Positions 14,101 to 58,389 of a stretch of 64,000 nucleotides of DNA are shown here, piece by piece. A program made the position numbers and the translations under genes. The stretch covers positions 558,001 through 622,000 of the forward strand of contig JASFAU010000007.1 in NCBI GenBank assembly GCA_039704465.1, written 5' to 3'. The number at the start of each line of letters is the position of its first letter. The stretch's first letter is position 1. Source of the DNA: Plasmodiophora brassicae. Taxonomy: Eukaryota; Endomyxa; Phytomyxea; Plasmodiophorida; Plasmodiophoridae. The notes under the pieces were generated by a model. It did not search any database. It was given only the letters and a program-made list of their open reading frames with translations, and was not told the DNA's origin.

Positions 14101-14177
14101 TAGCCCCCCTAAATCCGGCCTCGAGTTATAACAAGTTATAACTTAATATAAACTAGTTACATCAAAAAAGTTATAAC
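14093..14177. repeat. Four copies of the palindromic octamer GTTATAAC
   Basis: GTTATAAC, its own reverse complement, occurs at 14093-14100, 14125-14132, 14135-14142 and 14170-14177, in an AT-rich island within GC-rich DNA. GTTATAACTAG occurs at both ends. The cluster sits between the decayed gene and the ATG of the next gene at 14240, so it could be a promoter element or the terminal part of the decayed element. Confidence 0.6.
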
Positions 14178-14239
14178 TAGGTCTCGCAACCTTGCACGGG
14201 CCACGGGGTGCCTTCCTTCGGTTCCGGGTGAGTGGCTTG

Positions 14240-17239
14240 ATGGAGACCGTTGTTGCGATTGACCCGGGTTGGTTGCTGAGGAGCGGTCAGGCGGCAGCGT
14301 CGTTGGCCGATAATGATATCGGCGTACAGGCAGCGGCACAGCTGCGAGGCGTGCTCGGGACGCCTCAGGCGGTCGTGTTTCTCTCTCAGCTTCGCGCGCT
14401 GATCCCGTCGCCGCCTTCGGCATCGCCTTCCTTGCTCTCGTTTATCAACCTGGTGCAATCATCGATCTTTATTAAGCTGTCGCGAGATATCGACAACGAA
14501 AGGTTATGGGAAGCGCTCGAAACCCTCGTCGAGGTGATTGTCGCCGTCAATGACGACAAATCTGTGCGAAACGTCATGCGATGGGTATGTCGTCTTCCTG
14601 CTCGACACCAGTTACCAGCGAACCTATTCACGCCTGCGACATCTGCAGCGTTCATTGACATTCTGTCTGAAGTGCCTGTTAAGGCTGCCTGGGATGTTCT
14701 GGCATGTCTTCCCGTGCCTCACTGGACTGCTGTGCTTGCTTTGCTCAAGCGAGACTTGTCGACAGCACTTGATGATATTCTGTCCCACCTGGTCCCCCTT
14801 TTCGTAAACTGGAACGAACAGACGCATCGTGATGCAGCGGCTGTTATCCAGTGCTGTTTCTCCCGGCTCTCCGATCTACCTACAACAGCATCGTTTCCAA
14901 GTAGCCTACGGAAGCATGCTGATGGGATGGAGTTCACAAGGGCTTCATCCATAAGTGATGGTCCTCTCGGCAGATTCCTGCACATTTTGTATGTGCACGG
15001 GAGACGTCTCAATTCTACACTACTTCTGCGCTTGTACACGAAGCTCGGGGCTCTATGCGCTTCCTCTCCGTCAACCCTTTCTGTGTCTACTCTGATTGTG
15101 ATGAGCATGCTCGCTCCTCACCAACTTGAATCAGTAGCCAGGATCATGATCGGCTGGTTGGGCTCAGCCCCACGTCCCATCCTTGTTGAATCGACATTTT
15201 ATATCGCAGCAGCTGCTGCTGAACGACAGGCTGGGGTCGAGGAGTTTCGGTCGTTATCGCTACTGGCCTCTGCAGTATGGCGGAGCGTGCGGGACGATGC
15301 CGTCCAGGCAGATGCCTTGCGTACGGCAATCGCTCATGTCATTGCTCGTGCTCCCGATGCGCACTGCATCCTATCAGGTTGGTTTGCCGAATGTGCATGC
15401 GATCTGACATTACCATCTGCTGTCTTCAATGCAAACCTAGCAATCGTCGAGTCGCTGCTCGACATGGTGGCTGGCTGTGAAGATCGCCAGACGGCCATTC
15501 TTCCGACTCTGATGCCGGTCGCTCTGGCGCTGAAGCGATGGGTCGCTTCTGACCGCGTTGAGACGATCAACGAACTGACAGCGTCCGCCCTCGTTCGCTC
15601 GATCAGCCAAGTGGCAACGCACGCCATCCGCTGTCAACAACCCTCTGCCGCCTGTGATCTAATCGGCGACATTGTAAAGCAGCAGGTGTACAACTGGTGC
15701 CATAGTCCACGCCTGTTCGTCAGGCGCATACCTAGTGCCATAGTCGGTCAGGTGCGCAACCTTCAAGTCCTGAATCTGCCTGACCTTCAGCTGCTGCACA
15801 TATGGCTCAACGCTGTCTTTGACGTCGGGGATATGCCTTCTTGGGAAATCATTACCGCTGCAAAAGGCCTCATTGTTGACATCAGTGTCGCAGCTCAAAA
15901 CCGCACGAACGCTGTCGTCGCCGTGGTTCGCGCCACCCGCCACCTGTTTGACTCCAAGCCCCGATCTTCAATGCTGGCATTGCAGTTTGCATCGCCATTC
16001 ATGAATTTGTTGTCCGTCACTGAATTGGCCCGTCGAGCCGATCATCCTAGTTGGTACGACGAGTTTTCGAATCGCGCCCTTGGCAGCGTTTTAGTGCATT
16101 GCGCACCGTTCCTGCATCTGAACACAACGAGCACGACGCTATTCAGACGACTGGTAGACATCTTTCTTCGCGCTCCTGAAGGCAACGACAGCTCTGTCGA
16201 ATATGTTCTGCCGTCTCTGGCGCAATTGAATTACGTTCAAGACCGCGGCCTAAGCCAAACCCTTGCACGTGCCGTTGAACGGTTTTTACCAAAGTCCCCA
16301 TTCGAAGCTTGGGTTGCCGCGATCCAAAACTGCCCTGATGAGTTTATTGGCTACCTGGTCCACTGGTTCTTCCTTCCTGCCATTAATCATATCGAATCAA
16401 GACATATCCTGTCATCGACTAGACGTGCGTTGCAGTTGTGCTTGTATTTGCTGGGGCAGCCGCGTCCTACAGCCCCTGATATTGGCCTTGTAATCCCTCG
16501 TTGTTGCCGCCTTACTCGTGATCATTCTGTTCACATTCGTTCGTGCATCGCCCGAGCGGATGTACTGCAGCACAATGGCATTGTGACGGCCGCCAGCGTT
16601 GAATTTCAGACGCTAATATATCAGTTTGCGTCGAGAAGCATCGAGCTAGATGCGTCTCGCCCCGTTGCGAGTTGGTCCTGCGCTCGTGCTCTGCACGACT
16701 TGGCGAATATCACTCTAATGGTCGCGGCAGAATGCAGTGAAATGCGCGCGGACGCTTTAGCGAAGCTTTCCAATGATGTTTGGGCATGTGTCCCGAATCG
16801 TGATCAAGTGAACGCCCTTGCGATGTGCCTGGTTGTTGAAGGCCTTCCATACGTGCAACGGGTTTCAGTGGTGGAACCCCTAGATGATGCTGCCCTACCC
16901 CGGTCTATCTCTGACACCATGCCGCGCTTGATTGCAGCAATCTTCGACCATCTTCTGACAGTGGCAACGACTCTCGGCGATCTCAGTTTCGTTCAGCTTG
17001 AAACAGTCCAGTATATTGCATCGTGCTGTGCCCAGCTTCAGCCATCACCAGCCTACACCACTGTGCGCGACAGTGTCCTTTCTGGATATTCTGTCCTGAT
17101 TAGCAATCTCCCCCATGAATGGAATCTTCGCGAACCGCTGCCATCTGCACGTTCTGATTTGCACCGCCTGCATCCTCAACTTGTATTCGAAAATGAGCGC
17201 GTCTCCAACCCATGGTCCATAGACGGTTTCATTATTTAA
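14240..17239 (+). CDS. Large intronless predicted alpha-helical repeat protein
   Basis: A single frame of 999 residues starts at the ATG at 14240 (METVVAIDPGWLLRSG). A longer frame exists only with a non-ATG start. Throughout, 30-45-residue units of amphipathic helices rich in Leu, Ala and Val alternate (for example WDVLACLPVPHWTAVLALL), as in ARM/HEAT solenoids. There is no signal peptide or TM segment. I do not recognise a family. It differs from its neighbours in having no intron over 3 kb and more AT-ending codons, which could reflect a retrocopy, transfer or different expression. Confidence 0.7.
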   Translation: METVVAIDPGWLLRSGQAAASLADNDIGVQAAAQLRGVLGTPQAVVFLSQLRALIPSPPSASPSLLSFINLVQSSIFIKLSRDIDNERLWEALETLVEVIVAVNDDKSVRNVMRWVCRLPARHQLPANLFTPATSAAFIDILSEVPVKAAWDVLACLPVPHWTAVLALLKRDLSTALDDILSHLVPLFVNWNEQTHRDAAAVIQCCFSRLSDLPTTASFPSSLRKHADGMEFTRASSISDGPLGRFLHILYVHGRRLNSTLLLRLYTKLGALCASSPSTLSVSTLIVMSMLAPHQLESVARIMIGWLGSAPRPILVESTFYIAAAAAERQAGVEEFRSLSLLASAVWRSVRDDAVQADALRTAIAHVIARAPDAHCILSGWFAECACDLTLPSAVFNANLAIVESLLDMVAGCEDRQTAILPTLMPVALALKRWVASDRVETINELTASALVRSISQVATHAIRCQQPSAACDLIGDIVKQQVYNWCHSPRLFVRRIPSAIVGQVRNLQVLNLPDLQLLHIWLNAVFDVGDMPSWEIITAAKGLIVDISVAAQNRTNAVVAVVRATRHLFDSKPRSSMLALQFASPFMNLLSVTELARRADHPSWYDEFSNRALGSVLVHCAPFLHLNTTSTTLFRRLVDIFLRAPEGNDSSVEYVLPSLAQLNYVQDRGLSQTLARAVERFLPKSPFEAWVAAIQNCPDEFIGYLVHWFFLPAINHIESRHILSSTRRALQLCLYLLGQPRPTAPDIGLVIPRCCRLTRDHSVHIRSCIARADVLQHNGIVTAASVEFQTLIYQFASRSIELDASRPVASWSCARALHDLANITLMVAAECSEMRADALAKLSNDVWACVPNRDQVNALAMCLVVEGLPYVQRVSVVEPLDDAALPRSISDTMPRLIAAIFDHLLTVATTLGDLSFVQLETVQYIASCCAQLQPSPAYTTVRDSVLSGYSVLISNLPHEWNLREPLPSARSDLHRLHPQLVFENERVSNPWSIDGFII

Positions 17240-28399: not shown

Positions 28400-30931
28400 T
28401 TATTCGCCCGAGGTCGACGACGAGTCGTGTCTGGGCAGGGCTTTGAGAGCGGCGCCCAGCCACTGGCGTCGGGCGTCGGCGTTGCCGAGTTCGACCCACT
28501 TCGAATGGGGCACGACGAGAACGCGGTACCCAGCGGCACGTAGGAGCTTGTGCCGAGCGATGGTCGACATTCGCAGGCGGGGCTTGCTGCTGCCCACCAC
28601 CGAGTAGTAGTGGTGTGGGCCATCGACCTCGACGACGACGCGGGTGCCGGTGATGACGAGGTCAGCGTGGACGCAGAGCTCCGGGATCCACTGTTCCAGC
28701 GAGTTCACGTGCCCGAGGCGGTTCAGCTCCCGGGAGACCTGCTGGGCGAACTTGGACGGTTCAGGGCGCTGGCTGAGGGGTACCAACTGCGACAGCCACC
28801 GCTTGGTGAGTTTGTCGACCGATTCCGGCATCGGGTGGTGGTCGACCAAGTACCGCCAGATGATGGCCGCGTGGCAGAATCGCCACCTGGTGTCGTCGGC
28901 AACGTCGTCCGTTGATTCGGACCCGTCGTGCATGGCCGTCAGGCGCTTCGCAATGACGTCGAGGATACTGGTCGGGTACGGCTTGCTCAACGGAGACATG
29001 GTCGCTTCCAGGCCGAACAGGGTGACAGCGCTGAGCACCTCCGGATCCATCTTCATCAGGCGCTCCGGCGTCAGGACGGCGACTTCGTTCATCTTGAGCT
29101 GGCCCAGGTCGCCCATCGTGTACAGCAGCGTGCCGATCTCGTCGTCCAGCTGGAAATCCAGGGCGCCCACCACCGACAGCTTGCGGTGGATCTCGGCGAA
29201 CAGTTTCAGGTCGACGATCGACGCTGTGCAGTACGAGGCGGCCACCATGGCGACATCGGCGCCACTTAGACTTGGCAGGATCCGCAGGACGCTGTCCGCC
29301 ATGAGCGCCATGATCTTCTTCTTCTCCTGGTCGCCGTCGTCCCCGAAACGGATCCGCGCCACTTCCTGAATGAAGAACATGATGTCGACCGGGTAGTCGT
29401 CGACGGACATGGTCAGGTCCTGGACGCGACGGACAATCGACACGATGACGTCGTCGTCGCGGGACAGGCCGAACGCGTTCAGGCCGTGCATGACAATGAC
29501 GAGATCGTGCAGGTTGGCGATCTTGTCGGTGGATTCGTACAGCGCCTTGCAGACGTTCGACCGAATGTTGATGTTGGACGCGTGGCGCTTGACGAGAGCG
29601 ACGGCGGTCTCGGCCAGGTCCTTGATGGGTAGCGTGCGCCACGCGTCCTTCTCGTTCAGGTGCTTGGCCGCCTTGTTGTAAAACTTGGAGTCCGCGTACG
29701 ACATCGTGTTCATCGACGCAACCAGGCTCGCGACCTGCAGCGGATCGAACGAGTCCATGTGAGTCATCGCATGCCAGACGATCTGGTCGAGGAGCCCGGG
29801 CGGTCGCGTCGATTCGGCCAGGAACGCGACGGCCGCGACGAAGTCATGCGGCTTCAGATACCGTAAGTCGGTCTGGAGGCGTGCCAGGAACGCATTGTGC
29901 CACTCGTGGCAGTACGGCACCGGCGAGATGACGGTGCCGAGCTCGATCATGTTCGCCCACGACATCTTGGGGACACGAGCGGCCGCCACCTTCGCCAGGA
30001 CGCCGTAGATCGGGTCGTGGAACAGGACGTTCAGCCGCTCAGCGGCCGTAACGACGCGTACAATGGCACGATCGTCGAGGTCGTTGCGAAGGTCCATGGC
30101 GCGTTCGATGAGAGCAGCGACAAGCGGACGATGGCTCAGGAGGATCTGCCCAGCGGCCCACATGCACGATCCGACGTCGGTGCCGTTCAAGTCCTCGGCG
30201 ATCGCAAGCAGACGCGATGTCAGCCCTGGCAGCGCTTCCTTCTGCACGGCCTCAGACAAGGGTGCGACGGCGCCCAGGCACCAGAACATGTTCGCCAGCG
30301 ACTGCGGCGGCGCCAGCAGCGATCGCAACGCGATCTCGCGCGCGGCCGACGTCCAGAACACTTCCGAGCGTTCGCCGAGATGCGCGAACCCGAGAATGAT
30401 GCTGTTGAACGCCGGGTCAGCCAGCGATCGAAGGTGGTTGGAGCAGTGTGCGGCCAGGTCGGCGAGCAGCGCTTTATCGAACGCGTCCTTCCGATTGCGC
30501 GTCAACCTGGGAAGCGCCCACAGCACGTTCGGCAGTTCACGAACGGTTAAATCCGTAACGCGCTTGCGGAGGACGTCCAGCAGCCATCGATGCATTTCGA
30601 GCAGTTCAGTCGGCGGCTTCCGGGCCATCATGAACAGCGCCGTGGCGACATTGACACCGGTCATCGGCACCCCGTCCTTCCGCAACTGCAACAGCAGCGA
30701 GTACAGCGCGGCATGCGTTCGGCACTCGCTGATTCTCATGTTGATCTCGTGCGATTCGGGGAGCGACGCCTTCGGCGACGGCGCCGCCGCCGCCTGCCCG
30801 GCATCCGCCCTCACCGACGGATACGCCGCCGCCGATGCCGCCCCGCCATACGCCCGGAACGTCCAAGCTGCACGTGCGACCTGTCGGCAGAATCGCCGGC
30901 GCACAACATGTAACGCCCGGGGCACCACCAT
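28400..30931 (-). CDS. RAP-domain organelle RNA protein
   Basis: One intronless frame of 843 residues starts at the ATG at 30931. The N-terminus (MVVPRALHVVRRRFCRQVAR) is arginine-rich without acids, as in mitochondrial presequences. The body is made of repeated helical units such as LPNVLWALPRLTRNRKDAF and VASLVASMNTMSY, like the repeats of FASTK and OPR proteins. The C-terminal 60 residues are a RAP domain: TRVVVEVDGPHHYY, then RHKLLRAAGYRVLVVPHSKW. RAP proteins bind and process organellar RNA; the domain has a restriction-endonuclease-like fold. A long plus-strand frame on the opposite strand is an artefact of GC composition. Confidence 0.9.
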   Translation of the reverse strand: MVVPRALHVVRRRFCRQVARAAWTFRAYGGAASAAAYPSVRADAGQAAAAPSPKASLPESHEINMRISECRTHAALYSLLLQLRKDGVPMTGVNVATALFMMARKPPTELLEMHRWLLDVLRKRVTDLTVRELPNVLWALPRLTRNRKDAFDKALLADLAAHCSNHLRSLADPAFNSIILGFAHLGERSEVFWTSAAREIALRSLLAPPQSLANMFWCLGAVAPLSEAVQKEALPGLTSRLLAIAEDLNGTDVGSCMWAAGQILLSHRPLVAALIERAMDLRNDLDDRAIVRVVTAAERLNVLFHDPIYGVLAKVAAARVPKMSWANMIELGTVISPVPYCHEWHNAFLARLQTDLRYLKPHDFVAAVAFLAESTRPPGLLDQIVWHAMTHMDSFDPLQVASLVASMNTMSYADSKFYNKAAKHLNEKDAWRTLPIKDLAETAVALVKRHASNINIRSNVCKALYESTDKIANLHDLVIVMHGLNAFGLSRDDDVIVSIVRRVQDLTMSVDDYPVDIMFFIQEVARIRFGDDGDQEKKKIMALMADSVLRILPSLSGADVAMVAASYCTASIVDLKLFAEIHRKLSVVGALDFQLDDEIGTLLYTMGDLGQLKMNEVAVLTPERLMKMDPEVLSAVTLFGLEATMSPLSKPYPTSILDVIAKRLTAMHDGSESTDDVADDTRWRFCHAAIIWRYLVDHHPMPESVDKLTKRWLSQLVPLSQRPEPSKFAQQVSRELNRLGHVNSLEQWIPELCVHADLVITGTRVVVEVDGPHHYYSVVGSSKPRLRMSTIARHKLLRAAGYRVLVVPHSKWVELGNADARRQWLGAALKALPRHDSSSTSGE

Positions 30932-31220
30932 ATGCAGCTGCGGCGACTGTGCGACACGACGGGGAGCTGCAGCACAACGCCGTGGTGGCCACCCGGCAAC
31001 TGGCGGTGCGCCCCCCGTCCGCAACGCCGGGCCTCTATTAATAACTGCGCGCGTGGCGGCGTATCCGACGCCGCCGACGGCCTGGCTGCTGGGACGACAC
31101 AAAATCATTGTCGTTCGGGTTTGTTGCGGCCGTCCTTTTCGGAACGTGGGGCTGTGCGGGCGGGATCGTTCCAGGACGATAGCGGCTCGCGTGCGACGCC
31201 AGGAGGACGACGTCCATGTC

Positions 31221-32829
31221 ATGCGGGACTGGATCGTGTCGTTGCTGCAGGACGTGCTCGAGCGCCTGAAGCTGGCGGTGATGTTGCCGCGACGCGTCGT
31301 CGAGTGCATTGCCCGGTTGCTGCGGTACGTTTTCTCGGCCAAGGCGCTGACGCTGTGGTTGCCGGGCGGGGTCTCGATTTCGATCGAGAGGAACCGCCGC
31401 TGCGAAATCGCACGTTCCGCCCCGCCGTCATCGAAGGCGGCGGCGGCGAAATTGGTTGTCGCGCCCGGTGAAGATGTCGACCAGATCACGCCGCCTGTAT
31501 TCAACGTGCCGGCGCCGCCTGCCCCGCCGGCGCCTCCAGCACCACCGGCGCCGCCTCCATCGTGCCCTCCGACGCCGACGACACCAAAGAAGGCCCGAAC
31601 GTTGAAGTCGTTCCATTGGGAGAAGATCCCGCCGAAGGACATTGCAAATACGAGCGTCTGGTGCATGGCTGGCGATTTCTGCAACCTGGGCGCCCTCCAT
31701 CATGATATCGTGCTGCACTTTGGCAGGGAAGATCTTCGGCGGCCGTCAACGCCGAACCCGAAAAGCGCGGGGGGCGAAGACGACGTTCGCCTGGCGACCT
31801 TCGTCGATGGTCGCCGGGCGCAGAACCTGGCGATCCTGATGAGGCGGATCGCGTCGCGTGGCATGGATAGCGAAACGATCACCGTCGCCCTGTGGGCCAT
31901 GAACACGTAAGTGGACGGACCACCCGCTGCTTGTCCATGATAACGTTCTGATTATCGTTCGGGCAGCGATGTCATCAATGGCGACCTTCTTGACACGGTA
32001 AGCCGCTAGTCACGTCTGTACGGCGCCGTTTACTGAATCTGCGTGTTCGAAGTTGTTTCAGGCGGTCCCAACAGAATCGGAATTGTACATGATCTCCAAA
32101 CTGCCGCGCGGGTGCAACGTTGCTGTTGAGTTGCGCAAGCAGGAGCGATTCCTGGTCAGGCTGGCGAGCGTCCGTGACGTTAACAAGCGACTCCTGCTGC
32201 TGCGTTCCTGGGAGATTCTTCCTCAACGCATTCGTGAGGTTCGATCCCGGATTGAGCGCGTCCTCGCCGCCGTCCACACCGTTCGGCACAGCGAGAGCTT
32301 CCGTCGTGCCCTCCATGTGACGCTCTGCATCGGCAACTTCCTGAACAGCGGTCAAAGGCATGGGGAGGCCCAGGCGTTCGCCATCGACAGCCTGAACCGG
32401 CTGTCGATGACCAAGTCGACGCTCGACAAGCGGAAATCGCTGCTGCACCTACTGGATCAGCACGCGGACCTGTCCAAGCTGGTGCAGGAGTTCTACTGCT
32501 TGCGCGGCGCCCGCCATATCGACGCCGACGAACTCCAGGCCGACATTGAATCCATTCGGGCCGTCGTGTCACCCGGCGGTTCCGTCAGCGCCCCTGCGAG
32601 CCCGTCCCAGCCCGACGACGGGTTCCCTGCGTTCGTCGCCAAGTTCAAGCGTCGGTTCGGGCCGCGAATCGACCGCCTTGTCCAACTGCATCGCGACCTG
32701 CTGTCGGCGACGGCGGATCTGAGATCCTACCTGAGCATGACGGACGGCTCGCTGAATAATTTATTCGACACCCTCGCTGAGTTCTGCGCCATGGTTGAAC
32801 GCCTGCACAAGCTGGGCCGGCCAGCGTGA
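31221..32829 (+). CDS. Formin with short proline-rich FH1 and FH2 domain
   Basis: Three exons (31221-31906, 31967-31997, 32062-32829) encode 494 residues; the middle exon is only 31 nt. After a basic, partly hydrophobic N-terminus comes an FH1-like (PAPPAPP) proline tract near residue 100. The FH2 domain begins with LKSFHWEKIPPKDIANTSVW and includes FVDGRRAQNLAILMRRI, LPRGCNVAVELRKQERF, LCIGNFLNSGQRHG and FAIDSLNRLSMTKS. FH2 dimers nucleate and elongate actin filaments. There is no GTPase-binding or DID region, so regulation must differ from diaphanous formins. The ATG at 31221 is a choice; earlier exons are possible. It is divergent from the RAP gene (290 bp apart). Confidence 0.88.
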
Positions 32830-39914: not shown

Positions 39915-42374
39915 CTATAGTGCTGGTTGCCTAGCCAGGGTCCGGTTAATGGACGCTCTTCTCAGCATCTTGTTCTGCCCTTCCCGGACGGCGTCCAGGA
40001 ACCGGGCGGCCTGCTCGGGCGTTGCGGCGACCCGTTCGGCGAACTCCTGCAGGCGCACGAGCGCGTTGGCGCGCCCGTACGGCGTGGCCAGCCAGGCGAA
40101 CACGGTCTCCATGCTCTTCCTGTAGCTGGAGCTGAAATGCAGGTACGTCGCTTCGCACTCGTCCAGGCGGCCGCGGAACGCGAACGACGTGACCAGCGCC
40201 CTGAACACGTAGAACTCCATCGGGATGCCACGCGACTGGAACTCGCCAATCATCCGGCCGCATTCGTCGAACATGGCGTTGCGCGCCAGGACATGCAGCA
40301 TGGCGTTGTAGGCGTTGATCATGCAACGCTCGGGTGGCGAACGCTGCATCAGCAGAGAGAAGAGCTGTTCGGCGATCTCGACCATGCCGACGTTGCCGAA
40401 CGCGACGATCATGGAGCTGATGGCCGCCGGGCGCGGGAACCCGCCCGCTTCTTCGAGAAGGGCACAGATGCGCTCGCAGCGCTCGAGCTCGCCTCGGCCG
40501 GCCAGCGCCTCGATCAGGCTGCTGCAGGTCGTGATGAAATCGGCCAGGTTGTCCCGGGACAGCTCCTCGACGAGGTGCTGGGCGTCGTCCAGCAGGCCGC
40601 GTGCGACGAACACCTTGACGACATCGTGCAGAAGCGTGAACGACGGCGCGTGTCCAGCAACGGTTCGCATCTCGCGGATCAGGCCCAGCGCGCGATGCGG
40701 GTCGCCAGATTTGACAATGACGGCGACCATGCTGTCGTACTCGAGGCTCGACGGCGTCCGCTTCCCGCCTTGCTTCAGCATGTCGAACAGGTACGTGCAC
40801 GCCTCGAGTTGCCCACGGGCGGACGACGCCACCAGCAGGTACTGCGCGTTGTCCACGTTCAGCTCGTAGCCGAGCCGTCGCGACTCGTCGAACAGTTCGT
40901 CGATGCGGACGATCGAGTTGGCCTGGATGGCGGCGGTCAGGTGCGCGTTCAGCGATGCCGCCGTCGGGACCATGCCCAGGTCCTTCATGATCGCCGCCAT
41001 CTCGTCGCAGCTTTCGAGGTCGGCACGGTTCGATCCGGCGAAGATGACGGTGGCGAACGCCTCCCTGTAGACGGGTATGCCCCGGGCGACCATGTACCGG
41101 ATCAGGGCGTGGCACCCGCTCGGGTTCGACTGGGCGCACTTCTGGATGATCGAGTACCCGAGCGACTGCGGCGACAGGCCCACCTTCTCCATCGTCTCGA
41201 ACACGACGATCAGCTGGTCCAGGTCGCCGTACTCGTAGAACCAGTCCCGCAGCGCCTTCATGACGGCCTCGTTGGCCGGGAAGTTCGCGTGGGCAGCCGC
41301 CGACAGGATCATGGTCAGGATCTCGTTCCTGCCGATGTAGTCACGAAGGAGTTCGTGCAGGTATGGCAGGACGGGTCGTAGCGTGAGCCGGACGCCGCCT
41401 GCCAGCGCCCTGGCCAGCACCCGGTTCAGTTTCTCCTTGCGTTCGTCCCAGTTGTCGGTCTCGCCCTCGAACAGCCACGCGACGTACGAATCGAACACGT
41501 CCGGGGCCGGGCGCGTCTGCTTCTGGTCGACGAGCTCCCAGATCTTCTCGACAACGTCTCTGTGCCGTCGTCGAATCGAGTACCTCATCAGCGCCGTGAA
41601 GGTCGCCATCGAGTACGAGCTCTCCTCCGCCTGCAGAAGCGAGTCGCGAATCGAATCGGCTTTGTCGAAAATGCCAACGTCGCCGTACAGCGTCATGACC
41701 TTGGCGAGCGCGTTCGGGGTGGGTGAGATCGCATCGCCCAGCATCGATTCGATGGTGGCGTCGACGAGCTGGACTTCGCCGTTGGCCGCCAGCACCTCCA
41801 GCATCGTCGAATGCGTGTACCGGTCCGGTTCCACTTCCCGTTTCTGCATCTCGTCCAGGACGGACTGCATGGCGGGCAGGCTGGCGTCCATCTTGGCGAG
41901 CGCGTCCAGCCAGATGTTGAAGAACTCGGTGTCGGGCGTGATATCTTCCCGGTCGATACGCGCCAGCATTGCGTTGCACTGGCCAGGCGAGTGCCTTCGG
42001 AACGAGTCCATGAGGACATTGTAGTGCCAGATGCGCGCCTCGAACAGCTTCTTGTACGCGTCCAGGCAGATCTCGGCGCGGGTGATATCCCGGTGCCCTT
42101 CGCGCTGAAGCACCATCTGGAACTGGTCGTGCAGGTGCTCGAGCCTGGTCTGCGCCGTCCCGGCACGTTCTCTCGCCTTGTGCCCGTGCGGGTTGTACCG
42201 CGCGATGTACTGCGCCGATGCGATCTCCTTCTGTATATCATGGAACGACGACGTCAGGTAGCCCAACTCGCGCTGCAGCTCCTGCTGCAGGTCCGGTCCA
42301 GCTGACAGGAACCGGCATCGTTGCGGACGATGTGATCCTCCAGGCCGTAGCAGCTGGCGCAGGACACGTCGCAT
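39915..42374 (-). CDS. Pentatricopeptide repeat protein, probably mitochondrial
   Basis: One intronless exon of 819 residues from the ATG at 42374. The N-terminus (MRRVLRQLLRPGGSHRPQRC) is basic like a mitochondrial presequence. The body consists of consecutive 35-residue helical hairpins, for example YNVLMDSFRRHSPGQCNAML, FNIWLDALAKMDASLPAMQS and YSIIQKCAQSNPSGCHALIR, characteristic of P-class PPR proteins that bind organellar RNA. No C-terminal E, DYW or SMR domain is visible. Together with the RAP protein it points to nucleus-encoded organellar RNA control. Long frames on the opposite strand are shadows. Confidence 0.88.
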   Translation of the reverse strand: MRRVLRQLLRPGGSHRPQRCRFLSAGPDLQQELQRELGYLTSSFHDIQKEIASAQYIARYNPHGHKARERAGTAQTRLEHLHDQFQMVLQREGHRDITRAEICLDAYKKLFEARIWHYNVLMDSFRRHSPGQCNAMLARIDREDITPDTEFFNIWLDALAKMDASLPAMQSVLDEMQKREVEPDRYTHSTMLEVLAANGEVQLVDATIESMLGDAISPTPNALAKVMTLYGDVGIFDKADSIRDSLLQAEESSYSMATFTALMRYSIRRRHRDVVEKIWELVDQKQTRPAPDVFDSYVAWLFEGETDNWDERKEKLNRVLARALAGGVRLTLRPVLPYLHELLRDYIGRNEILTMILSAAAHANFPANEAVMKALRDWFYEYGDLDQLIVVFETMEKVGLSPQSLGYSIIQKCAQSNPSGCHALIRYMVARGIPVYREAFATVIFAGSNRADLESCDEMAAIMKDLGMVPTAASLNAHLTAAIQANSIVRIDELFDESRRLGYELNVDNAQYLLVASSARGQLEACTYLFDMLKQGGKRTPSSLEYDSMVAVIVKSGDPHRALGLIREMRTVAGHAPSFTLLHDVVKVFVARGLLDDAQHLVEELSRDNLADFITTCSSLIEALAGRGELERCERICALLEEAGGFPRPAAISSMIVAFGNVGMVEIAEQLFSLLMQRSPPERCMINAYNAMLHVLARNAMFDECGRMIGEFQSRGIPMEFYVFRALVTSFAFRGRLDECEATYLHFSSSYRKSMETVFAWLATPYGRANALVRLQEFAERVAATPEQAARFLDAVREGQNKMLRRASINRTLARQPAL

Positions 42375-42593
42375 TGACCGAGTGAGAGACGCCCCGCAAG
42401 GAGCTACCTACCTGCCGCAACGCAGTCCGCGGCGTCGGGGGGCAGCAGCACCCGTATCGCGGCACCACTGGAGCTGCACCGTTTGTGCAACGGAGGAACT
42501 ACAGGTACCCGTGCCAGTCGGTAGGCCTGCACCCGTGTCTGTACGCCGAAGCTTCACCGGCTGGTCACCGTGGTCCACTGACGGTGCTATAGT

Positions 42594-51552: not shown

Positions 51553-54500
51553 ATGGCGACATCTGGGGTCGTTGTGGCCGTCCGATGCAGACCGTTTAAT
51601 GCCCGAGAGGTCTCCATGAAGGCGACATTGATCATTGACATGAACGGGCCGCAGACGTCGATAAAAGATCCTGAGACGGGTAAAGTCTCCAACTTCGCAT
51701 TCGACTTCTCCTACTGGTCCCATGATGGGTTCGACGTTGATCCGAGCGGGTTGGCGGTTTCAAAACCAAACAACGACAAATACGCCGACCAACGCAGAGT
51801 TTTCAACGATATCGGCGTTAGCGTTCTCAATAACGCGTTCCAGGGATTCAACTGCTCCCTGTTTGCGTATGGGCAGACCGGTGCTGGGAAAAGCTATAGG
51901 TTTCACTCGCCTGGACCATAATGTCGGCAACTACTAACCTGTGTTTCATCCAGTATGGTTGGCTATGGACCTAACAAAGGAATCATCCCAATTACCTGCG
52001 ACGAACTGTAGGCTGGTGCTGCTGAATGGTGGTGCGACTGAGTGAACTGATGACCTGGTAGGTTCAAGCGTATCGAAATGAACACGGACGCGAATATGTC
52101 GTATGAAGTGCAAGTGTCCATGCTTGAAATCTATAACGAAGCCATTCAAGATCTGTTCAATCCGGGGAAGAACCCGGCAGGGGGGCTGAAGATCCGGGAG
52201 AAACCTGGTGTCGGCGTCTACGTTGACGGGTAACAAAGCATTCAGGAGTCTCGCTCGTGAATCATGTAGAGGCTTGGCGTTTCTAGGCTGATCAAGAAAC
52301 CGGTGACCAGTTACAAGGAAATCGATGCGAAAATGGAGGAAGGGACAAAGAACCGGACGGTCGCTTCCACAAACATGAACGCAACCAGCTCACGTGCTCA
52401 TACCGTGTTCACGATTGTCTTCCGGCAAGTGTCCAGTGATCCAAACAATCCAAAGGTGAAATCTGTCAAGGAGTCCAATGGTCAGTGGTGGGGTTTGCCA
52501 ATCCGACAGGTTCCTTCAGCCATAAACTGAGCACCTATTTCAGTGAACCTGGTCGACCTGGCCGGTTCCGAGCGAGCCGATTCGACAGGAGCGACCGGTG
52601 ACCGGCTCAAAGAAGGCTGTGCCATTAACCAGTCGTTGTCGGCGCTCGGTAACGTCATTTCTTCGCTTGCTGACATGGCGGGCGGCAAGAAGGGCGTCTT
52701 CGTCCCATATCGATCGTCGAAGTTAACTCGGCTGCTCCAGGTGCAAACGCGCTCCTTGCCATACGCATGCTTGATTGCACACCTAACAGTGTCAGCTGAC
52801 AGGACGCGCTTGGTGGAAACTCTAAAGTTCGTTGGCGATGATTTGGTGCTTGTCGATTTGATGCTAATGGTCTACAGACTGTCATGATTGCGGCTTTGTC
52901 TCCAGCAGACGTGAACTATGACGAAACGCTTAGCACTCTAAAAGTTGGTTCTGATATGTCCTCGAGCTAGCATTTGCTAACTGGCTTCAACAGTATGCCG
53001 ATCGTGCCAAGAAGATTCAGGTGACATTGCCGTCTGCCGACTCTGTGTTCGTGGCATTGTCTGATCGCATGAAACACAGAACAAGGCAGTTATCAACGAA
53101 AATCCCGCTGATACGATGATCCGGTTTGACAGAAGTGCTGTGATAATGTGCATTTTACAAAGCCGGTCTTCAGGAAACTGAAAGAGGAGAATGCGCGGTT
53201 GCTGAAACTTCTCGAGAGCAAGGGTATTGATGGTGGCGTGCCAGGAGGTCTGGTGGACATCCAGCTGTACCTTCACATCATGATCTCAATGACCATGGGC
53301 TTCTTTCAGAAGCCCCTGCCGCTGACGGTCAAGGCGCCTCCCATATCGCTGAACTGCAGAAAACCATCGAGGAGAACGACAGTAAGCAGGAGATGCCATG
53401 ACGTCGTATCGGTGCTTCACTCAAAACGTTGCAGGGCTAATGCAAGAAATGGCCAAATCGTGGGAACAGAAGCTGAAAGAGGTGCAGTTGCAAACCTGAA
53501 CGGCCGGACGACTGAACTGAACGCTCGCGTGCAGGCACGGGAAGCCGCTCTAGCAGCAGCACAGCAAGCCGGGCCCAGTGATGGATCTGTCAGCGTTCAC
53601 AGCGCAGAAGCCAGTCGCCTTCCACATCTCGTGAACCTGCACGAAGACCCCATGCTGTCCGAGTGCGTCGTCTATCCGTTCAAAGCCGGCATCACCAAGA
53701 TTGGACGTCCGAACGCCGACACGAAACAAGACGTAATGCTGAGCGGGCTGAACATTAAGAAGGAGCATGCTGTTGTCGAGAATGTGGACGGGAAGGTCAC
53801 TATCCGGCCCGTCGAAGGGGCCCAGGCGAAGATTTTTGTTAACGGCGACCTTGTGGCCGCTGGTCAAAGCACAGAGCTCTCTCCTGGCGATGCAGTCATC
53901 CTTGGAAACAACTTTGTCTTCAGGTTCTGCACCCGAGTGTCGGGGGTTGAGCTGTGCCTGAATACCGTAATCCGTTAGGTTCATGCCACCTGGATCAGTG
54001 GACGACTCCGCCGAATGGAAAGACTGGAACAAGGCTATGGAGGAGCTGTCGATCAAGCAAGGGTTCAGGACACAGCAGAACATGGACAAGGAAGTGTCGC
54101 AGCTGGAGCAGGAAGAAAAGAAGATGCTTCAGGAGAAGATTGCCGAGATGGAGGCGAAGATGGAAAATGAGCGTACCGAAGCCGCGCGTCGCCTTGAAGA
54201 GCAGCGGCGATTGTTCATTGAGAACGGTGGCGACCCTGAGGATATCGATACGTTGATGAAGGAGGGCGAAGAAGCGATGAAAGCCAAGGAGAAAGAAATG
54301 CAAGAGTCGTTAATGGCGCAGCGCGAATTGACGAAGAAAATCGTTCAGGATCAGATGAAGCGGAAACGGCAAACGAAGAAGATCGAGCAGGTCTCGATAG
54401 GCAAATGTGCCAACGGTTGCTGTGCCACTGAACGGTTCCGCAGGAGCTTGGACGTCTAGTACCTCTGGTTAACGAAGCGAATTCGATATCAGAGGTTCTC

Positions 54501-56112
54501 AAGAAGAATATCAAATTCGAGGCGAAACTGACAATTGAATCGCCCAACGTCGTCGACGTACTCGACGAGTTGCGCCACCTGAAAACAATCAAGGTGGTCG
54601 TTAGGGTCACCAACACGGTCAGCCAGAACGTTTGGACTTGGTCCGCCGAGAAATTCGAAAACAGGTTTCAGGGCATTCATGAAATTTGACGTGCTTGCCG
54701 TGCCCGACTGTAATGACATACTTTGTTCAGATTGTTCATGATGCGAGACCTGTACGTTAGTCGAGAAGAACGCAACAACGCTGACGATCCGTTCTACGAT
54801 CCGCCTGAGCCGTTCGAAATCGGCAAAGCGTATGTGTACCTGAAGGTACGGCGTGTTCAATGCCCGATAGTTGGCTGCGCGCTAACCGATTCGTTCCCAT
54901 CAGGCCCTGTCGCACCTGGTCGAAATCGAGAACGAGTTCACTATCGTGAATTATAAGGGCGACACCGACGGTGAGCTGCGGGTCGAGATTCTCCCCCAGG
55001 GTCCCAACGGTGAAGACCTCGACTACCTGCAGGGCGGAGCATCTGAGCTGAAAGGCATGACCGTTGGTTGGACGGTATGCCATGTCGTCGGCGATGCCGG
55101 TAATTCGTCATTGATGATTGCATAGATTCGCATTGTTCGGGCAAGCGGGCTGCCGTTGATATTCTCTCACGATGTGTCGGTGACGTTTACGTTCATGGGG
55201 GTCGAGTACACCTGTGGGCCGATGGAAGAACAGACGACACAGCCGGAATTCGCGTACGAGGCCGATATCCCACCCGCTGTCGTCACCGAGGAAACCTGCA
55301 GGTACTTCGAGAACGAAGCGATCATGTTCCGCGTGTTCGGGTTCCGCGAAAAGCAGACCGCTCTGAAGCAAACGACGCTGGTGGCACTCGGTGCCAGCAT
55401 CGGTGAGGGCACCTGCCGGCACTGTGAGAGCGAGAAGGCCTTCTTCAAATGCAACGAATGCGCACTTGAGCTGTGCGTATCGTGCGAAGACCTCCTGCAC
55501 CTGGCGCCCAGCAAGGCATCCCACAAACGAGCCCCGTTGCAGGTTCCCGCGGCATCTAAGGCGGACGTTAAGGATCCTGCAATCCCATCTCAAAAGCAGG
55601 TTCCTGGAGCACAGGCATCCATGTGCCAGCAATGCGAAGAGCAACCAAGCACCGGCCGTTGTCAGCAGTGCAACGTCTCGCTTTGCAATGGCTGTTGGGA
55701 TTTCCTGCATATGGCCCCATCGAAGGCGTCTCACACTCGTGTCGGTGAGCGATATGTCATTACGAGCGGTACCTCGGCACCTGGCGCTGGCCCCGGCTGC
55801 CAGCAATGTGAAGAGAGACCGGGAGCTGTGCGCTGCCAGGAGTGCATGTTATCGTCATTATGCATGGATTGTTTCGATTTTCTGCACATGGCGCCATCGA
55901 AGGCAAGCCATGCTCGACTGCCAGTTGGCCCTGCCGATGCACCATCACCTTCACCGGCAGCGCCTTCCGGTGCAGTCAAATCGTGCCAGTTCTGCGAGGA
56001 GCGACCCGTCCAGATAAGCTGTGCCGAGTGCAGTCAGGCGCTGTGCGCCGAATGCAACGACCTGCTGCACCTGGCGCCTTCAAAAGCGGGACACACCAGA
56101 ACAGCCGTCTAA
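51553..56112 (+). CDS. Kinesin-3 with FHA domain and four C-terminal B-box-like modules
   Basis: Eighteen exons sum exactly to 1,207 residues. The motor has [15 protein letters not shown], the P-loop [30 protein letters not shown] (switch I) and [16 protein letters not shown] (switch II), plus YADRAKKIQ at the neck. A coiled coil and an FHA domain follow ([27 protein letters not shown]), then more coiled coil and a KIF1-like C2/DUF3694-type region ([20 protein letters not shown]). The last 230 residues hold four Cys/His modules, each CxxC...CxxC...C...LHxAPSKAxH, spaced 60-90 residues. Kinesin-3 motors move vesicles to microtubule plus ends. Exons of 24 nt (52803-52826) and 27 nt (52994-53020) fall inside the motor. 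Confidence 0.9.
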
Positions 56113-56184
56113 TGAATGTCACGCGCTTGGGATCCTGCCAGACAGTAAAATCTTGCGAGGAATACTGGTCGTCATTATTATTAT

Positions 56185-58389
56185 TCAAACCCGGTGGACA
56201 CTGGAGTCGGGCTCCTGCTTGACTTCCTTCGAGGCATCGGTATCGATCGACAGCTTCTCAGTTGCCACGGCACCAAACGCGCCGCTCTTGGAGTCCATGA
56301 CAGCGTAGTGTCGTCCGACCTTTGAAGTGGCATCTCTGAGACGCTCCGAGCTGCTGATGGCGTCTCCGCTGACAGCGTGCTGGGCTTTGATCTGCTGTTG
56401 CATCTCCTTGAGCAGCTTCTCGCGCTTCTTCGCACCTGGCGCATGGCCGTGGAATACGTAGGACAATTCCCGGAAGGCTTCCTTGGCGGTCATAGGCCTT
56501 CCGAACTCGTCTACGCGGTCGAGTCGGATGTGTGGTGCCGGGTCCTGAACAACAGCCGTCAGACAAAGATAATGTAAAGAGACAGAAGAGCATCACCTTG
56601 TATTCCTCACGTCTGGCATCATGCGATCGGCCAGCAATGAGAATGGGTTTCGTTTCCCGCGTCAGACCGCGACTCCTGATTAGACGGAGGGCGTCAGATA
56701 CACCTCGCGAAGCATGCGCGACATCGTCCATGAATTTAATTTCCTACACCACAAGGTTAGTGCCAGACAAACTGGTTCGACAATGCAGACGCACATCATG
56801 GTCGATTTCTTCTTCCGTGTCCTCTTCCTCGTCCGACCCAGCCGTTTCTTGTGATGGCGCTTTTGGCTGAGGACCGTCGACATCCATGTCTTCTTCGTCG
56901 TGACCGCCGACGTCCTGCCGATATCCTCGGTTAACACCATGAAAAGGTAGACGCTGTCGAAAACGACATACCATTGCAACAGCCTCTTTCGGGGCGTGCT
57001 CCTCTGGATGCATCCCATTTTCAACCTGTACTTCCTTCCTTACAGGCCGATGCCGTTCCTTCAGTTCTTCGGTGGATACGCGAAGGTTCGTCATGAATTC
57101 AGATGTTGCAGAGAACGCCACAGTTTCAATGTCGGCTGGGTTGGCTGCAGCTGAGATTTTCGCAGTTGGCTGGGATCTCCTAGCCGGAAGCTGTTCTTCT
57201 GCCTGCTCATCGTTCTTGCGTTGCGCAACGCGCCGGGCCTTCGCAAGCGATATCTGTAACTCAGGGTCGTCGAGATCTTGTTCGAACACAAGGCCGTCGA
57301 CTAGTTGATGGGAGCGGGCATCCGACTTTTGCATGGCAGCCTGGAACCGTTCTCTTCGTGCAGCAAGTTCGGCGTTGGCAGCGTCTATCCGGGCTAGTAC
57401 GGTTGTTCGCACCGCCCCACGACTGCCGTGATCAGCACTAGGACCCAGAACTGGCTCATCATCGAGAACCAGTTTGGCACGGGCGGACGACTTCGCCGCT
57501 CTCTTCTTCTTCGACGGCTTCTTGAATGCAACCACCTCGTCCTTGGAGTAGTAATCCGAAGAGGGCGCAGCTGCAGGCACATTCGCATCGTATGCCACTT
57601 TCGCGGCAGGCTTGCTGTTGTTCAGTTTCGCACGTATTGCCCGATCGCGATCGGCAACGACATTGGTCGCTGCCGTAATTCGAATGCCCCCACGTTTAGC
57701 ATCAAGCTCGTCCTTGACTTCGTCGTATTTCTGAAGGACCCCACGTGATGCGTCGATATCGTCCTCATCACCCACTCTGGGCTTCTTCGCCTTCCTCGCC
57801 TTATTCCTTTCGACGGCTTTGGACGCGACAAGATCAAGGTTCTCCAGTTCGTCTTCGGCGTCGTCGTCACCTTCGCCGATACGTCGATCTTTCAAGGTGA
57901 GCACAACCGTCTCGCCTTCAGCGAACTCATCGGCGTCATGCCTGACACGAAGTTCTGCAGGCGGTCCCGTTGAAACTGGCCGCGAACGCTTTGGAGCAGC
58001 GGATGCACGCACAGCGGGTGTACCCTAAGAGATTACGATTAGATGACGTTTCGACGGCGCTCTGTTTGACAATGTCGTCCCTGTACCTTGGCCTTAATGT
58101 TCTTGACCCAGTCAGCAGCAGATACCGATGCATCATACTCTTCGGCGATAGACGCCCCTTGGATCGACGCATTATACAGTCGCTCCTCCTTATGGGCCAG
58201 GATTTTCGCGGCCGCCTCATCCAGGTCGGCTTTCCGCCGGCGCGCCTCGTCGACCGCGCGCGCCGCGGCGACCTCCTCACGCTCCTGCGCCTCGGCATCG
58301 TCGCGGTCTCCGCTGAGCGGCTCCATGCCTAGCTGGGCCCGCATGGCATTGGTCTCCGCCAGCGACAGCGATTTCGCCGACGACGCCAT
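56185..58389 (-). CDS. SART1: SART1/Snu66 tri-snRNP splicing factor
   Basis: Five exons (58389-58087, 58024-56972, 56914-56795, 56743-56597, 56544-56185) encode 660 residues. SART1 holds U4/U6.U5 tri-snRNP and is needed for its recruitment to the spliceosome. The N-terminus SLSLAETNAMRAQLGMEPL is the family hallmark. Then come ETVVLTLKDRRIGEGDDDAE, a charged middle part, FMDDVAHASRGVSDALRLI and the closing RVDEFGRPMTAKEAFRELSY with VFHG. It converges with the kinesin (72 bp) and is divergent from RAB28 (305 bp). Confidence 0.92.

Follow-up and report, generated by a model that had tools for sequence, protein, structure and literature searches.

A kinesin-3 motor protein ending in four tandem B-boxes is encoded in a stretch of 64,000 nucleotides (nt) of Plasmodiophora brassicae (contig JASFAU010000007.1, positions 558,001 to 622,000), here called the window. 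The gene lies on the + strand at 51553..56112 and comprises 18 exons, with 1,202 codons plus a stop that ends at 56112. All of its 17 introns are 50-66 nt long and are bounded by GT...AG. Splice boundaries were picked by eye for continuity with kinesins, and the exons were then joined by script. The initial annotation of this DNA had given the same number of exons but 1,207 codons, and had taken 55075-55125, which is actually the last intron, for an exon. Its central claim, a kinesin-3 core joined to four B-box modules within one gene, is borne out by Pfam matches and by the exon that both parts share. The parts of the gene are as follows.

51553..53020, + strand: exons 1-8, kinesin motor domain, residues 1-359 (Pfam Kinesin 11-358)
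53080..53481, + strand: exons 9-12, neck coil and first coiled-coil region, residues 360-438, holding N421 and W432
53535..53923, + strand: exon 13, FHA domain, residues 492-562 (about 53694-53906), with E475 and D476 in the exon
53979..54390, + strand: exon 14, second coiled-coil region, residues 568-705 (the model of the relative P0012 has long helices here)
54444..55074, + strand: exons 15-17, MBS region and start of the MATH-like region (Pfam KIF1B 776-806, R779)
55075..55125, + strand: last intron, 51 nt
55126..56112, + strand: exon 18, end of the MATH-like domain (55126-55356), 19-residue linker, four B-boxes and stop
55414..55524, + strand: B-box module 1, residues 971-1007
55624..55734, + strand: B-box module 2, residues 1041-1077
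55798..55911, + strand: B-box module 3, residues 1099-1136, with one extra residue ahead of the fifth cysteine
55984..56094, + strand: B-box module 4, residues 1161-1197, with the C-terminus five residues further on

A kinesin-3 core and a B-box array in one gene

The type of the motor, an FHA domain that follows the neck and the first coiled coil, and a tail region with KIF1B/MBS and MATH-like parts all identify the protein as a kinesin-3. Five Pfam families were found above cut-off in this core: Kinesin (343.7 bits), Microtub_bd, FHA (29.9 against a cut-off of 20.7 bits), KIF1B (24.8 against 22.2) and Kinesin_assoc (51.2). Metal_resist and Yop-YscD_cpl stayed under their Pfam cut-offs, and NCBIfam gave no match for P0012 or for the NCBI P. 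brassicae protein P0001. Other kinesin-3 proteins usually end in PH, PX or CAP-Gly domains; the Pfam scan of the window protein reported none of these, as had been anticipated. The public-database entry of the P. brassicae protein bears a generic kinesin name, and the search tool lists kinesin-3, FHA, MBS/MATH and B-box domains for it.

The modules follow the pattern C-x2-C-x8-C-x2-C-x4-C-x2-C-x4-H-x7-H, module 3 being one residue longer. Eight cysteine and histidine ligands occur in fixed order in all four, and each module also has the tail LHxAPSKAxH noted earlier (4/4), whereas 2,000 shuffles of exon 18 yielded no module. The proposed check against the zf-B_box profile was likewise positive: Pfam zf-B_box (PF00643) matched three stretches above cut-off with 52.7 bits, and ANCHR-like_BBOX (PF22586) matched four with 52.6 bits. 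CEBP_ZZ was barely over its cut-off on the same modules (31.1 vs 29.8 bits). Single predicted boxes match solved B-boxes including TRIM28 and PML B1, with a root-mean-square deviation (rmsd) of 1.4 over 45 residues for box 4 on TRIM28 B1, and the best fold matches of the array are the tandem B-boxes of CONSTANS/COL2 (7vsq, 7wsj, 7vsp). The stretches between the boxes are predicted to be disordered and differ in length among relatives. The modules would be expected to bind zinc, two ions in each box.

To our knowledge no kinesin with B-boxes has been described, hence a false merge of a motor gene with a neighbouring B-box gene was the default suspicion. The kinesin-3 tail end and the array are nevertheless one gene and not two, because a single exon (55126-56112) encodes both. 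Exon 18 reads open through all of its 328 residues, and the remaining two forward frames contain 4 and 7 stops. P0001, which represents a cluster of five sequences possibly including that of the window genome itself, is also 1,202 residues long and differs from the window protein at 12 positions over its whole length, none of them a zinc ligand. One gene is further supported because relatives show the same tail-to-box join: it was seen in 18 further proteins, including P0009, a Trinity transcript by name in which an incomplete motor is joined by FHA, KIF1B and three B-boxes. The single exon and the shared join rule out the merge, one of two outcomes by which the initial annotation could have been overturned, and its probability is taken as negligible.

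Relatives sharing the ending

Relatives were obtained from three protein searches by shared 5-residue words, the first of which scored the 7,989 candidates with most shared words; diverged tails or kinesins with unlike B-boxes could be missed by such searches. Twenty-three distinct proteins were found, P0001 included, and 19 of them carry one to four modules by pattern. With the window protein replacing P0001, two have four modules, twelve have three, four have two and one has one. Fifteen of the 18 further proteins with the tail-to-box join include all or part of a motor; P0005, P0015 and P0018 bear boxes without a motor as given. P0020 (1,122 residues) is a version of the motor on a 61.7-kb contig, and its source name is that of an FHA protein only. 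The search made with the B-boxes alone had limited reach, several family members not being returned, and among 6,081 candidates it gave three proteins, all kinesins of the same family. By these comparisons the B-box ending is common to a family, a correction to the initial annotation, and it looks conserved, being found on related motors of other protists; a search for the same combination there had been suggested at the outset. P. brassicae belongs to the Endomyxa, within Rhizaria. The two named sources of the family are Endomyxa and Cercozoa, both Rhizaria, with Cercozoa represented by a partial box only.

In a tally of 52 modules seven of the ligand columns were invariant and the eighth was kept in 51, with one Asp. 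The non-ligand positions that stood out were Glu at position 6 (51/52), Lys at 34 (47/52) and Leu at 28 (46/52). The residue after the sixth cysteine is Asn in the last modules of 15 out of 18 proteins, and Phe or Trp in the first modules of 14 out of 18. Since the first and last places keep their own residue character, this suggests an old array with at least two unlike modules. In 15 of the 19 box-bearing proteins the chain ends 5-7 residues past the last histidine. The middle box of P0022 has a longer loop and is missed by the pattern, although Pfam gives three stretches there, and the second box of P0013 is degenerate.

Four proteins are without modules. P0023 is truncated and stops ahead of the MATH region. 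The boxes of P0006 are likely out of frame: in one shifted frame 8/8 ligands are possible at two positions, compared with a peak of 7, reached once, in 500 shuffles, and the other shift gave at best 3. For the rhizarian P0007 (Cercozoa sp. M6MM) no module was found in shifted frames, and the protein closes with only part of a first box, CGECEEDSVSVYC; the pattern for this part was chosen post hoc, and when the last 90 residues of P0007 were shuffled 20,000 times it was matched twice. P0008, a distant EukProt transcript, has the tail and no boxes and ends in CIIM, which we take to be CaaX-like. This end hints at a lipid anchor where other relatives have B-boxes.

The KLP-6-like core and the possible role of the array

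Among solved structures the core appears closest to KLP-6, a kinesin-3 of Caenorhabditis elegans (PDB 7wrg) that has the same order of motor, coiled coils, FHA, MBS and MATH domains and was the best solved match. The motor alone (363 residues) scored 423 bits against KLP-6 compared with 371 for KIF1A (KIF1A/UNC-104), 329 for KIF13B and 297 for KIF14, which have the kinesin-3 motor in common. In its predicted fold, the stretch of exon-18 residues 1-77 superposes on KLP-6 766-841. The resolved structure of KLP-6, as described in the available text, stops at the MATH domain and leaves the C-terminal stretch unresolved, whereas in the window protein four B-boxes follow this domain.

According to the available text of the KLP-6 study (PMC9314371), the motor of KLP-6 is enclosed by its coiled coils together with the FHA, MBS and MATH domains. 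Eight of the nine interface residues mutated according to that text (the ninth being I570) were compared across 23 rows. W421, E457, D458 and R662 of KLP-6 are invariant (23/23) and N410 is kept in 17; their window counterparts are W432, E475, D476, R779 and N421, respectively. A lock of the KLP-6 type is probably kept but not identical, because four residues are invariant and N410 is mostly kept while three are not.

A tree of 25 rows, cut before the array and including two outgroups, placed P0001 among a group of 19 rows (support 86/72). Its best version has a branch separating two named Rhizaria from KIF1A and KLP-6 (support 70/91), which recurs in 77% of bootstrap trees. P0007 and P0013 diverge close to KLP-6, which itself sits on a long branch of unsure and weakly supported position (68/71). 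KIF1A joins P0008 in a grouping that the program flags as possibly false. The tree is compatible with a single gain of the array as well as with several gains.

On balance, and with a probability barely above even, these data favour a self-inhibited kinesin-3 of the KLP-6 type whose B-box tail is multivalent and serves to bind adaptors or to cluster motors. The motor would rest in a self-folded state, its motor domain locked by the coiled coils, FHA, MBS and MATH-like domains. At the extreme C-terminus, a place taken by different cargo modules in other kinesin-3 proteins, the B-boxes would be beads that are stabilised by zinc, strung on flexible linkers and together form a multivalent protein-binding tail. 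The beads may bind a cargo adaptor, the B-boxes of neighbouring motors, or both, and gathering on cargo would then both unlock and cluster the motors. What the data show is the gene, the order of its domains, the sequence and conservation of the modules, and B-box folds as predicted; zinc binding, motility, autoinhibition, binding of cargo or of itself by the array, and activation by clustering are inferred. B-boxes are known to mediate protein interactions: they act in oligomerization in CONSTANS according to the available text of PMC11696179, and the PML B1-box forms multimers by that of PMC6706441. In the available part of PMC10945585, KLP-6 is said to remain a monomer even when unlocked, and the factors that induce its dimerization are said to be still to be found.

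Several observations weigh against this reading. R606 of KLP-6 is not kept in the family, being E or D in 23/23, and R606A is on a list of KLP-6 mutations that mostly restored activity in the available text of PMC9314371; E564 and F698 are not kept either, both having had a minor effect there. The mismatch at R606 slightly lowers the odds of this reading. The KLP-6 assignment itself is provisional, because the comparison of the motor covered just solved structures and two outgroups. The CONSTANS/COL2 matches cover two boxes at an rmsd above 10, meaning that the agreement does not extend to how the boxes sit relative to one another and only single boxes superpose well, and box 2 was modelled at lower confidence. 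The full-length P0012 model is weak (pLDDT 65.7, pTM 0.36) and uninformative on docking or oligomers. Within exon 18 (55126-56109) third-position guanine plus cytosine content is 0.75 for the MATH part but drops to 0.61 for the boxes, and no explanation is offered for this.

A bolder extension, which we consider doubtful, is that these proteins form a separate kinesin-3 subfamily at least as old as the common ancestor of Endomyxa and Cercozoa (the latter by its partial box). The B-box string would be a built-in multimerizer, and association between the boxes of neighbouring motors would bring KLP-6-like monomers together as a processive cluster, no lipid-binding PH domain being involved.

The main rival to the multivalent tail is that the array acts within its own molecule, as an extra lock packed on the motor or on MBS/MATH, or as a second microtubule-binding tail. 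Lysines are common near the seventh ligand (position 34 as above, and position 30 in 41/52 modules), which speaks for it. Against it, disordered, length-variable stretches between boxes suit beads on a string more than a fixed packing, and the KSxKK stretch reads APSKA in P. brassicae, so that most of the basic patch is not kept. This alternative appears unlikely, somewhat more so than the subfamily proposal. Considerably less probable still is that the array is a recent and nearly neutral addition such as a functionless tandem duplication. The variable number of modules among relatives, from one to four, and the likeness of the P. brassicae modules in their APSKA tail would fit such an origin, but the ligands are nearly invariant and first and last modules are distinct. 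Between the window protein and P0001, moreover, six of the seven changes after residue 970 fall in linkers, and every ligand is the same.

TRIM E3 ligases contain B-boxes, and a ubiquitin- or SUMO-linked interface, with the motor being E3-like or reading modifications, had been proposed in the initial annotation. The matches of single-box folds to TRIM28 and PML B1 agree with this, as does a RING-like family, PF25080, on the boxes of P0003, although the latter is below cut-off (15 vs 27 bits) and is the only RING-like name encountered. No RING family reached its cut-off in any of the 23 proteins scanned, and for the window protein none was reported even at E up to 1, which makes an E3 role unlikely. 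TRIM proteins (PML, TRIM28) also have the order RING, B-box, coiled coil, which is absent here, the boxes of the window protein being C-terminal of the coiled coils. The nearest solved tandem boxes, CONSTANS/COL2, likewise stand in tandem but are two in number, belong to plant transcription regulators and oligomerize. ANCHR (ZFYVE19), for which PF22586 is named, has a FYVE domain by name and not a motor. The ubiquitin/SUMO proposal thus found no support and is regarded as very improbable, only marginally less so than the neutral addition.

All of the parts (kinesin-3, FHA, MBS/MATH and B-boxes) are known, and their conserved combination looks undescribed. A conserved family joining a kinesin-3 or other kinesin motor to B-boxes was not found in the open-licence literature searched, nor was any paper there on kinesin-3 together with Rhizaria; the array is, on that literature, no known common kinesin-3 ending. 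A 2010 kinesin survey (PMC2867816) has no "B-box" in the available main text, and its supplementary list of 105 architectures, which was not covered, could hold an unremarked listing. In the available parts of PMC9958989, PMC4053983 and PMC2837644 kinesin and B-box occur only in separate table rows. The available text of PMC5118790 reports a P. brassicae kinesin motor domain protein on lipid droplets, which may or may not be the window protein. For the question of how kinesin-3 motors are unlocked, dimerized and tethered to cargo, a natural motor of KLP-6 likeness whose protein-binding tail is compact and multivalent would allow testing whether tail clustering alone activates a motor. It would also give kinesin-3 a cargo interface beyond PH, PX and CAP-Gly, in Rhizaria.

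Genome context

The genome (25.3 Mb in 21 contigs) showed no second copy of the gene: a tail search gave four matches, all at the locus of this kinesin gene. A genome search with PF00643 gave at least 13 matches, with three at the kinesin gene, six at C1:293 kb (five above cut-off), two at C20:408 kb, one at C10:395 kb and a weak one at C9. A motor search of the genome found no kinesin at these other loci. The matches at C1:293062-294186 (L005, L006, L008-L010) form a second array of six boxes, five of them over the Pfam cut-off, in an open frame of 663 residues. Viral relatives were also considered and rejected: when viral_contigs was scanned with the alignment of the family, 21 pattern matches came up, none of them confirmed.

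Within the window, an open frame of 1,020 codons at 14177-17236 (+ strand) had no Pfam match at E up to 0.001. On the - strand lie a long PPR-repeat frame (39918-42407) and a RAP-domain frame (28403-31699), types usually tied to organelle RNA. The convergent neighbour of the kinesin gene at 56184-58024 (- strand) matches SART-1 in two open frames (56184-56592 and 56747-58024), and its end is about 70 nt from the kinesin stop.
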